Shown here in pieces: positions 32,259 through 42,514 of a stretch of DNA of 59,684 nucleotides. The position numbers were made by a program, and so were the translations under genes. Every line of letters begins with the position of its first letter. Position 1 is the stretch's first letter. Origin of the DNA: Ligilactobacillus agilis DSM 20509 (lineage in GTDB: Bacteria; Bacillota; Bacilli; Lactobacillales; Lactobacillaceae); NCBI RefSeq assembly GCF_001436215.1, contig NZ_AYYP01000009.1, positions 1 through 59,684 on the forward strand, written 5' to 3'. The notes under the pieces were generated by a model. It had not been told where the DNA came from and searched no databases. It was given only the letters and a program-made list of their open reading frames with translations.

Positions 32259-32705
32259 TTGGAAATAGAAATTAAGGCAACCAAGGACTTAGCTAGTCAG
32301 ATTTACCAAGACGCGCTCATGATTAGAAAAGAGGTCTTTGTAAAGGAGCAAGGAGTCGACATGGCCCTGGAGCTTGATGGTGAGTTGGGGCCAACGCATT
32401 ATGTCCTTTACTATCAAGGTAAACCGGCGACAACTGCTCGAATAAGCCCGGAACAGGCAGGCTGGCACATTCAGCGGGTGGCTACCTTGAAGTCTTACCG
32501 CAAGTTAGGCCTAGCTAAGCACCTGTTAAGTAAGATTGAAGAGGATGCCCGCCAAAGTAAGGTAGCGTATTTAACCTTAGGGGCTCAAGATAGTGCGCAA
32601 GGTTTTTATACTAAATTAGGTTACCAAGTCGTAGGTGCGGGCTTTTTAGATGCAGGGATTGCACATCACCGGATGGATAAGTCCTTGCAAATCAAGGAAA
32701 ACTAG
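32259..32705 (+). CDS. GNAT family N-acetyltransferase
   Basis: A 148-residue acetyltransferase of the ElaA/YjcF-like group. Visible: the KEVFVKEQGV segment near the N-terminus, VATLKSYRKLGLAKHLL (the acetyl-CoA pyrophosphate loop, RKLGLA), and FYTKLGYQVVG followed by GIAHHRM near the end. Substrate unknown. The start is probably the TTG at 32259, placed about 8 nt after AGGAAG; a GTG at 32250 abuts that site. The last codons contain the -35 element of the RNA gene that follows. Confidence 0.85.
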   Translation: MEIEIKATKDLASQIYQDALMIRKEVFVKEQGVDMALELDGELGPTHYVLYYQGKPATTARISPEQAGWHIQRVATLKSYRKLGLAKHLLSKIEEDARQSKVAYLTLGAQDSAQGFYTKLGYQVVGAGFLDAGIAHHRMDKSLQIKEN

Positions 32706-32713
32706 CCTATAAT
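32685..32713 (+). promoter_or_regulatory. Near-consensus promoter of the RNA gene
   Basis: TTGCAA, exactly 17 bp, then TATAAT. Transcription should begin near 32718-32721. The -35 lies inside the end of the GNAT gene. Confidence 0.75.
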
Positions 32714-32718
32714 AAGTG

Positions 32719-32906
32719 GCATGCGATGAGTCGAGGAAAACCAGGCAATCATTGATTGTTCCGCTAAAGCGGCTAGTGGTAAGAATCGAAAGGGGACACA
32801 GATGCTACCGGATTGTAGCGTGTCTGGCTGTTAGTATTGTGGAGTACGGCAGCCCATTTGAATAAATGCCCAGAGGGGACCTAGGTAAAACTGGGTTCCT
32901 TTTTTT
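32719..32906 (+). ncRNA. Probable structured small RNA of about 187 nt, class not identified
   Basis: No open frame of note, but a strong promoter just upstream and an intrinsic terminator at the end. Visible helices: CAATC/GATTG and CCGC-TAAA-GCGG early on; a long central hairpin with GACAC and GCTAC against GTAGC and GTGTC; GGCTG against CAGCC; and GGCAT (32718-32722) against ATGCC (32866-32870), which may close the fold. The next gene, lemA, has its own -10 element after the terminator, so this is not simply a leader. Size and central hairpin recall 6S RNA, but I cannot build the 6S bubble and the class stays open. Confidence 0.6.
32875..32906 (+). terminator. Intrinsic terminator of the RNA gene
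   Basis: GGGACCTAG pairs with CTGGGTTCC over a 6-nt loop (two wobble pairs), followed by seven T. Confidence 0.82.
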
Positions 32907-32968
32907 AATTTAAGTTTAAATTAAAGGCGAACCAGCTGATAAATTAATAACTGAAAGTAAAATTTTGG

Positions 32969-32974
32969 TATAAT
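32969..32974 (+). promoter_or_regulatory. -10 element for lemA-htpX
   Basis: TATAAT in the short space between the RNA terminator and lemA; no good -35 element is seen. Confidence 0.5.
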
Positions 32975-33003
32975 GAAAATAAAGCTTTTGAGGAGGAAAT
33001 TTA

Positions 33004-33558
33004 ATGACACTACTGATTGTAATTGTTGTCTTAGTAATCTTGGCTTTGATTTACATCTCAATGTACAATGGTTTGCAAAAAGCCAAGGTTAACACTGAAG
33101 AATCATGGAGTCAAATTGACGTGCAATTAAAACGCCGGAATGATTTGATTCCTAACTTAGTCGAAACTACTAAGGGTTACGCTAAACACGAAAAAGAAAC
33201 CCTTGCTCAGGTAATTAACCTTAGAAATCAACTAACCGAATTACCAGCTGATGCACACGCGCAAAAGATGGAAGTCTCAAACCAATTAACAGACACCTTA
33301 AAATCAATCTTTGCCTTGGCAGAAGCTTACCCAGATTTGAAAGCTAACCAAGAATTCACCAAGTTGATGGAAGAATTAACCAATACTGAAAATAAGATTG
33401 CTTACTCACGGCAACTGTTCAACAGTTCTGCAGCTAACTTCAATCAACGCCTACTAACCTTCCCATCAAATATGGTTGCTAAGATTCACCACTTTACTAA
33501 GGTCGACTACCTTGAAGTACCAACCGAAGAAAAGGAAGCTCCTAAGGTATCCTTTTAA
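33004..33558 (+). CDS. lemA: LemA family protein
   Basis: A 184-residue protein with one N-terminal membrane helix (residues 2-21) and a long helical body. The family core is clear: YNGLQKAKVNTEESWSQID then QLKRRNDLIPNLVETTKGY, and later NTENKIAYSRQLFNSSAANF. The function of the family is not settled. It is paired with the protease gene htpX, 20 nt downstream, a common arrangement in lactic acid bacteria. GAGGAGG precedes the ATG. Confidence 0.92.
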   Translation: MTLLIVIVVLVILALIYISMYNGLQKAKVNTEESWSQIDVQLKRRNDLIPNLVETTKGYAKHEKETLAQVINLRNQLTELPADAHAQKMEVSNQLTDTLKSIFALAEAYPDLKANQEFTKLMEELTNTENKIAYSRQLFNSSAANFNQRLLTFPSNMVAKIHHFTKVDYLEVPTEEKEAPKVSF

Positions 33559-36164: not shown

Positions 36165-37646
36165 TTGAAATTTAGTGAACTTGGTCTGGAAAAAGATTTA
36201 TTAACAGCGATTGAACGAAGTGGCTTTGAGGAAGCAACCCCCATTCAAGAAGCAACAATTCCCTTGGTATTAGCAGGGGTAGACGTGATTGGGCAGGCAC
36301 AAACAGGGACTGGAAAGACAGCGGCGTTTGGGTTGCCAGTGTTACAACACGTCAATCCCAAGAAAAATATTATCCAGGCCGTAATTATTTCACCAACCCG
36401 TGAGTTAGCAATTCAAACGCAAGAAGAATTGTACCGCTTGGGTAAGGATAAGAAGGTAAAGGTATTGGCCGTTTATGGTGGGGCCGATATTCGGCGGCAA
36501 ATCCACCAGTTAAAGCATAATACCCCTCAAATTTTGGTTGGGACGCCGGGTCGCCTACTAGACCACATTAACCGTAAAACCGTTGACCTTAGCTTGGTTA
36601 ATAGCTTGATTTTAGACGAAGCCGATGAAATGTTAGACATGGGCTTCTTAGATGATATCGAGTCAATTATTGAATCAATTCCGCCTAACCGGCAAACACT
36701 CTTGTTCTCAGCAACGATGCCTAAGGCTATCTTAAACATCGGCGAAAAGTTCATGATGGAACCACAGGTTGTCAAAATCAAGGCCAAGGAATTAACGACT
36801 GATTTAGTCGACCAATACTTTGTCCGGGCTAAGGATTTTGAAAAGTTTGACATCATGACTAGGATTATGGACGTGCAAGCCCCAGAGTTGACGATTGTCT
36901 TTGTCCGGACTAAGCGCCGGGTAGATGAGTTGTCTAAGGGCTTAGAAGCAAGGGGCTATAATGCCGCCGGGATTCATGGGGATTTGACGCAACAACGGCG
37001 GATGAATATCTTGCGGAAATTTAAGGCGGGCCAGCTTGATATCTTAGTGGCGACCGACGTGGCAGCCCGGGGGCTAGATATTTCTGGGGTAACCCACGTT
37101 TATAACTACGATATTCCCCAAGATCCAGAAAGTTATGTCCACCGTATTGGTCGGACTGGCCGGGCGGGCCACCATGGAACGTCTGTAACCTTTGTGACCC
37201 CAAATGAAATGGACTATTTACGGGTTATTGAGAAATTGACTAAGAAGCGGATGGAACCAATGAAGCCACCAACAGAAGCGGAAGCCTTTGAGGGGCAAAT
37301 TTCTTCTGCTTTAGTCGACATCAAAGAATTAGTTGCTAAGACAACGACCGCCAAATACGAAGCTCAAGCCAAAGAATTATTAGAGCAATACGATGCGGTT
37401 GACTTAGTAGCCGCTTTGCTTAACAACATGACTAAGGATGATGCTAGTCAAGTTCCAGTTAAGATTACGCCAGAACGGCCGTTACCACGACGCAAGAAGG
37501 GGAACCATACCGGTAACTTCCGGCGGAGCAATAAGAATTGGCGTCCTAAAAACAAGCGCTATGATGAACGGAGAAGGTCAGAGCGTGACCGGGACCGTGA
37601 TCAATTTAAGCACCGGACTAAAAAGCGGAAGTTTACCATCCGCTAA
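36165..37646 (+). CDS. cshA: DEAD-box ATP-dependent RNA helicase CshA
   Basis: RNA helicase linked to the degradosome and cold adaptation. Q motif and GFEEATPIQ at the start, AQTGTGKT (45-52), PTRELAIQ, DEAD (151-154), SAT, and HRIGRTGRAG are all present. The C-terminal tail (from about residue 435) is rich in Arg and Lys and probably binds RNA. 493 residues. The start is a TTG at 36165 with TAGGAGG about 9 nt upstream. The 168-nt gap after murF is AT-rich and likely holds a promoter and long leader, common for cold-inducible helicases. Confidence 0.94.
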   Translation: MKFSELGLEKDLLTAIERSGFEEATPIQEATIPLVLAGVDVIGQAQTGTGKTAAFGLPVLQHVNPKKNIIQAVIISPTRELAIQTQEELYRLGKDKKVKVLAVYGGADIRRQIHQLKHNTPQILVGTPGRLLDHINRKTVDLSLVNSLILDEADEMLDMGFLDDIESIIESIPPNRQTLLFSATMPKAILNIGEKFMMEPQVVKIKAKELTTDLVDQYFVRAKDFEKFDIMTRIMDVQAPELTIVFVRTKRRVDELSKGLEARGYNAAGIHGDLTQQRRMNILRKFKAGQLDILVATDVAARGLDISGVTHVYNYDIPQDPESYVHRIGRTGRAGHHGTSVTFVTPNEMDYLRVIEKLTKKRMEPMKPPTEAEAFEGQISSALVDIKELVAKTTTAKYEAQAKELLEQYDAVDLVAALLNNMTKDDASQVPVKITPERPLPRRKKGNHTGNFRRSNKNWRPKNKRYDERRRSERDRDRDQFKHRTKKRKFTIR

Positions 37647-42212: not shown

Positions 42213-42261
42213 GAAAAGAAAAAGGCGCCCTCAAACTAGAATGCTCTAGTTCAAGGGCGCC
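42213..42261 (-). terminator. T-box-controlled terminator of the brnQ leader
   Basis: On the minus strand GGCGCCCTTGAACTAGA pairs with TCTAGTTTGAGGGCGCC, followed by TTTTTC. It lies directly after the T-box sequence. Confidence 0.9.
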
Positions 42262-42514
42262 AGTGCGCGGTACCACCTTGGTTTTACAATTACATCGCTG
42301 CAATTGCCTTTCACGTGCGGCCCCAGCCTTAGTGGGGCGATACGCTAACACGATAATGGGTGTTCCCAGTGTACCTACTAATAATTGTTGGGTACAGCGC
42401 TCGAAAGGGATTTTCGCTTTTAAAGCACCTATTCCCTCACACCAACCGGAATTCGCTTGAGGCCTTTAAAAGTTACTCTTCTTTCTCATTGCGTTCTTTA
42501 ATATTTAATCTATA
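42213..42514 (-). promoter_or_regulatory. T-box riboswitch upstream of brnQ, probably isoleucine-specific
   Basis: The core T-box sequence GGTGGTACCGCG (minus strand, 42277 to 42266) precedes the terminator. Upstream, GGTTGGTGTGAGG fits the distal Stem I loop. The Stem I base can form from AAAGG and CCTTT, placing ATC in the specifier position (GAAAATCCCTTT). ATC codes for isoleucine, a BrnQ substrate. Uncharged tRNA-Ile should favour the antiterminator. The specifier assignment is inference from the fold. Confidence 0.9.

Follow-up and report, generated by a model that had tools for sequence, protein, structure and literature searches.

What RNA, if any, is made from the DNA between a GNAT gene and lemA in Ligilactobacillus agilis DSM 20509, and what might it act on? 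The locus lies in a 59,684-nt stretch that was analysed as a whole (hereinafter the window), with the gene order GNAT gene, small RNA, lemA, M48 peptidase, Mur ligase and DEAD-box helicase. A preliminary description, drawn from the sequence itself, had proposed a TTGCAA-17-TATAAT promoter driving an RNA of ~187 nt with at least four helices and a strong terminator. All of these sequence features are borne out by our analysis, which places the features of the gene as follows.

32685-32713, plus strand: promoter, with a -35 element TTGCAA, a 17-nt spacer and a -10 element TATAAT (consensus scan, 10 of 12 positions matching)
32721-32906, plus strand: Ref68/MarS-family small RNA of ~186 nt, with predicted ends (RF02840 match, our own model R1, terminator)
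32735-32792, plus strand: P1 domain, a junction with two hairpins (covarying helices 1-4; absent or reduced in divergent relatives)
32794-32825, plus strand: P2 hairpin, with NGGA in its loop (covariation alignment; 23S site comparison)
32826-32854, plus strand: P3 hairpin (covarying helices 8 and 9)
32855-32868, plus strand: P4 hairpin (helix 10 of the covariation alignment)
32872-32906, plus strand: intrinsic terminator (stem 32872-32903, T run to 32906)

The transcript is predicted to start at A32721, 8 nt past the -10 element, which gives the length of ~186 nt. A TATAAT at 32969-32974, read from the sequence 5' of lemA, agrees with the earlier proposal that lemA has its own -10 element, and the small RNA is therefore likely to be a free transcript separate from lemA; the promoter scan reports a weaker promoter at 32936-32963 before lemA and not this TATAAT. 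A 49-aa GTG frame (32716-32865) overlaps the gene, and a coding RNA is opposed by the covarying helices and by length changes among relatives. Sequence signals and covariation together support an independent structured small RNA gene. The DEAD-box helicase gene (36165-37646, plus strand), three genes past lemA, is a possible candidate for the release of an RNA duplex, proximity being little evidence of such a role.

Is the RNA a known one? The Rfam model RF02840 (Ref68/Lacto-3) matches 32722-32847 over its full length (model positions 1-124 of 124) with 100.5 bits (gathering cut-off 44), and the RNA belongs to this family by covariance-model score. The preliminary description had called the gene unassigned and had held that a match to a known Rfam class would remove its novelty; the match does so, and the RNA gene is not new as a finding because Rfam already names RF02840. 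The Rfam model ends inside P3 (window 32847) and its title names neither a function nor a target, whereas the 3' part, P4 and the 23S pairing described below are added by the present analysis. A 6S-like RNA, the main alternative named earlier, is not supported, no 6S family being present among the matches of the window Rfam scan or of a permissive scan of 32500-33100 (up to E 10); the two RNAs are alike in a size near 190 nt and differ in architecture and target. Across all Rfam classes, the window scan yields RF02840 and a T-box only, the latter a leader at 42250-42498 on the minus strand (99.9 bits against a cut-off of 93). The stretch GAUGAGUC bears what we take to be a passing likeness to the hammerhead ribozyme.

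A second Rfam family, streptococcal asd/MarS (RF01732), aligns to the window with 29.1 bits (E 0.0012), below its cut-off of 84, and membership by score thus fails; the alignment has an identical 5' end, AUGCGAUGAGUCGA, and extends through to the terminator. At E 0.001, RF02840 has a match in 49 of 60 genomes (the window's own included; 36 above the family cut-off) and RF01732 in nine (three above cut-off). Six of the nine RF01732 places are RF02840 places and three are extra, so that 52 of the 60 genomes carry either family, one copy each. Judged by these matches, in which the two families share places in six genomes and one model finds both, Ref68 (RF02840) is homologous to asd/MarS (RF01732). 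MarS/asd shares with the window RNA its 5' end, the order of elements and the match places in those six genomes; it differs in having been published as an mRNA regulator (PMC5613026). At the three RF01732-only loci (L036-L038) both of the 23S-pairing elements described below are present, in genomes with 23S U2474, and by common locus together with these same two elements the window RNA does belong with RF01732. The two families share no clan in the Rfam tables used and could be joined.

The predicted fold has a z-score of -3.17 and 1 of 200 shuffled sequences folds equally well; in this modelling the structure exceeds chance. Among 52 homologues, 91.0% of helix cells are paired versus 64.2% in shuffled alignments, 41 of 44 pairs vary in both partners and the covariation score reaches 0.572 versus 0.182. 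These values are biased towards the structure, since the alignment was fitted to it and 24 of the 52 sequences went into the model. At L049 and L097-L100, among other loci, the P1 domain is reduced. L097-L100 are the shortest relatives examined: beyond the 5' element and the terminator they keep just two hairpins, one of which bears the P3 element. Over the predicted folds of 129 of the 131 relatives, the unpaired fraction averages 72% for the P3 motif, 56% for nt 2-10 and 34% for the rest; the motif was not found within the searched stretch in the other two genomes with the RNA (G029 and G037). In the window RNA's own predicted fold, part of the 5' element and part of the P3 element are base-paired, which, like the modest openness of nt 2-10, counts against the pairing with 23S described below.

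The distribution was followed with our own covariance model R1, built from 24 sequences. R1 matches the window at 32721-32872 with 136 bits, a score to which the window sequence contributed as one of the builders, and finds all 52 homologues at E up to 1, the 24 builders matching by construction; the three streptococcal-type loci score 18.5-29.2 bits and the weakest of the 52 scores 13.4 bits (E 0.083). With nine candidates scored per genome, R1 matches at least 99 of 295 Lactobacillales genomes, and every genome listed with a match has one copy. Of 395 Lactobacillales genomes, 89 contain a strict pattern in which a -10 box shortly precedes the 5' end, versus three reversed-control matches, as counted by eye. 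Twenty strict-pattern matches were read, and four without RNA architecture by eye (G142, G151, G337 and G282) were excluded; in G282, R1 finds another place. Applied to 84,980 species genomes, a still tighter pattern matches 103 stretches, of which about 28 are expected by chance on a rough estimate; 74 of the 80 listed are Lactobacillales by name and six are not. On these sequence matches the Ref68/MarS small RNA is widespread in Lactobacillales. In G028, G332 and G033 (family f1) its gene lies ~1.5-2.4 kb downstream of a 23S gene, as reckoned from coordinates.

What, then, does so conserved an RNA pair with? Two elements of the RNA have counterparts in 23S rRNA (E. coli numbers).

32721-32734, plus strand: 5' element, antisense to 23S U2506-U2519 with one G.U (sequence complementarity, register test)
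32838-32843, plus strand: P3 loop element UGUGGA, antisense to 23S U2473-A2478, the helix 89 loop (base 5 of the element covaries with 2474)

When the 5' motif was searched for in the window's own genome with two mismatches allowed, the matches besides the gene itself were one copy with a single mismatch, on a 3-kb contig, and three with two mismatches. The contig is 23S rRNA and its copy lies on the antisense strand; the 5' end AUGCGAUGAGUCGA is therefore antisense to 23S, at a site placed as U2506-U2519 via alignment to E. coli rrlB. The earlier proposal of a closing pair GGCAT/ATGCC does not hold: its first three bases fall before the point where the transcript is predicted to start, and the 5' end is conserved for a different reason, this 23S complementarity. 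With 14 bp including one G.U and a predicted energy of -23.1 kcal/mol, the 5' duplex is the longest RNA-23S complementarity in the own genome, for which 1881 bases of 23S were compared; the P2 loop comes second, with 13 bp of which five are G.U. Matches as good as that of the 5' element are reached on a same-genus rRNA operon by 0 of 20000 shuffled 14-mers and by 55 of 119342 window 14-mers.

The match is kept in register among relatives. The site was read in 47 genomes, for which nt 1-14 comprise 658 positions; 648 of these (98.5%) pair, versus 16.0-47.4% when the register is slid by 1 to 4 bases. Nucleotides 2-10 and 12-14 pair in all 47 and nt 1 in 46. Nucleotide 11 (window 32731) lies opposite G2509; U occurs there in 35 genomes, the Watson-Crick partner C in 3 and an unpaired G in 9. 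The position may have been kept weak to help the duplex come apart. Nucleotides 15-18 have no consistent complementarity, so the match ends at nt 14/U2506. In all 60 genomes compared, nt 2-10 match 2510-2518, the next best 23S site being matched in 17; the regions 1323-1330 and 2454-2461 were rejected as sites for the 5' element, nt 5-12 pairing less well there. Between nt 7 and 23S 2513, the states in 81 genomes are U-A in 54, U-G in 17 and C-G in 10, with no C-A, and nt 7 C has three origins on the tree, each time with 2513 = G.

The P3 loop provides the second contact. Relatives carry [U/A]GUG[G/A]A in the P3 loop region, the fifth base facing 2474; the first base is an unpaired A in 4 of 47 genomes. 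The fifth base and 2474 are G-C in 55 genomes, A-U in 33 and discordant in none, a count that covers 88 of the 131 genomes with the RNA, the 23S sequence of the other 43 not having been found. In three genomes (G370, G007 and G012) the loop was hand-picked among several matches; under an automatic loop rule G370 becomes discordant (87 of 88) and the other two are unchanged. On a tree of 60 23S sequences, 2474 changes five times and the loop base five times, always together and with no genome disagreeing; this was a quick tree, built with the target columns removed, in which 35 of 57 inner branches are starred and one genome (G296) is poorly filled. The five independent contrasts all run in the same direction, for a sign-test value of 0.0625, the smallest that five pairs can give. 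Of 1091 variable 23S columns, one (2474) agrees fully with the loop base and the next best reaches 86%; here the 2474 state stood in for the loop base, to which it is identical in all 60 tree genomes, and N letters were excluded. Two other 23S sites, 2074 and 2554, are pairable with nt 2-6 of the motif by G.U in 60 of 60 genomes but show no joint change, and were rejected.

Three contacts (5' end, P2 loop and P3 loop) were proposed before the 23S sequences of other genomes were read; the 5' end and the P3 loop held and the P2 loop failed. The pairing of the P2 loop with 23S 2391-2400 (AUCCGG) is good in the own genome and missing in lineages with other loops, and was therefore dropped as a general contact; no 23S place fits the NGGA loop in more than 32 of 53 genomes. 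States of 2474 were also predicted for 48 genomes ahead of reading their 23S. The site was found in 7 of 50 genomes searched, and all seven testable predictions held, five of them from one genus whose other members were already known as C. The most telling predictions come from the own, mostly-C genus: G009 (C), and G013, which was predicted and found to be U.

Taken as sequence evidence, this amounts to conserved, covarying base pairing with rRNA, and we consider it highly probable that the Ref68/MarS RNA pairs with 23S. The two elements are colinear and antiparallel, the 5' end facing the downstream site and P3 the upstream site. We take U2506-U2519 to be the 5' strand of helix 90, beside the catalytic nucleotides, and U2473-A2478 to be the helix 89 loop. 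In the E. coli secondary structure of the mature subunit, helix 90 is closed by another 23S strand, and the peptidyl transferase region is among the last to settle in late 50S intermediates. Since the 5' element would compete with this closing strand, the RNA should act before the region has closed, its substrate being nascent 23S or a late 50S intermediate. Anchored there by a kissing contact between the P3 loop and the helix 89 loop, it would hold the 2506-2519 strand with its 5' end, and misfolding of the peptidyl transferase centre might thereby be prevented until the RNA is displaced by proteins and helicases. Given the pairing, a role as a late 50S assembly chaperone is reasonably likely, and a 23S-pairing RNA that chaperones late 50S assembly is, on balance, the explanation of the whole that we favour. 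To the wider proposition that Lactobacillales own a dedicated trans-acting RNA ribosome assembly factor, which takes hold of nascent 23S at the helix 89 loop and the helix 90 strand and acts as a chaperone while the peptidyl transferase centre folds, we give about an even chance.

Published observations on streptococcal relatives bear on this reading. In the accessible parts of the report on group B streptococcus (PMC4448216), Srn046/asd is ~200 nt and visible on Northern blots, its level falling strongly in late stationary phase and also dropping at pH 5.2; by analogy, this profile might be that of a growth-linked ribosome factor. A MarS deletion strain is described in the available portion of its report as having wild-type-like growth characteristics in THY medium (PMC5613026), which implies that the RNA is not essential in that streptococcus.

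The alternative that survives best reverses the roles: free precursor 23S would titrate an mRNA-acting small RNA and so tie mRNA control to rRNA supply. Part of the MarS report describes binding to the mga 5' UTR in a gel shift, abolished by a CC to GG change at nt 88-89 (PMC5613026). In L038 the CC of GUGAACC, adjoining the P3 element, lies at ~nt 89-90; on this comparison the MarS CC at nt 88-89 is probably next to the P3 element, so that one region of the RNA may serve in both contacts. What weighs against titration is that the 5' element and the P3 loop track 23S in the readable families of the order, and that we know of no mRNA target conserved across Lactobacillales. We regard it as unlikely.

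With almost the same low probability, the RNA could pair with 23S to block or store ribosomes, binding free or damaged 50S at the catalytic centre and inhibiting translation. The two target sites presumably flank that centre, and the helix 89 site, which we take to be a loop, would be reachable in finished subunits; the 5' site, however, is presumably a closed helix there. The streptococcal relative also drops in late stationary phase according to the accessible parts of PMC4448216, the opposite of what is expected of a storage factor. Cleavage, in which the RNA would mark surplus or misfolded 23S for a double-strand nuclease, draws on the predicted 14-bp duplex of -23.1 kcal/mol and is very unlikely, the duplex being, as we understand it, short for RNase III and nt 11 being a wobble or mismatch in 44 of 47 genomes. 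Least credible of all is coincidental complementarity in an ordinary trans-acting mRNA regulator: the published MarS account, as far as accessible, is of that kind (PMC5613026), and part of another report describes a conserved enterococcal RNA with computed targets (PMC7724050), possibly an RNA other than Ref68, but the states of 2474 and the P3 loop coincide in 88 of 88 genomes, a match unique among 1091 variable columns, and a second element pairs in register at 98.5% of positions.

New here is the likely 23S target, the RNA family itself being already catalogued. Among the matches listed from the open-licence literature, titles and abstract openings contain no report of Ref68/MarS-23S pairing, and '23S' and 'ribosom' are absent from the main text of the MarS paper (PMC5613026). 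None of the names looked for, namely srf-17, asd, ref68 and several enterococcal numbers, turned up in the accessible main texts of two Grad-seq reports (PMC7196914 and PMC10117718), nor is the name ref68 used in the available part of Shioya et al. (PMC3166299). In pneumococcus, srf-17 carries the annotation asd RNA motif (PMC6212727). We found no explanation there for the conserved core of the catalogued family.

Assembly chaperoning by the Ref68/MarS RNA would liken it to the rRNA-pairing snoRNAs of eukaryotes and the C/D or H/ACA guides of archaea, in that all are trans-encoded RNAs with rRNA-antisense elements and a chaperoning or guiding role, here a proposed one. It differs from them in having no C/D or H/ACA architecture by eye, and we claim no common descent; we know of no bacterial rRNA guide machinery. 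As far as we are aware, the peptidyl transferase centre is handled by proteins in bacteria and by snoRNAs in eukaryotes and archaea. If the proposal is true, bacteria would also use a trans-encoded RNA for the folding or use of this centre, and some of the published MarS effects may be ribosome-borne.
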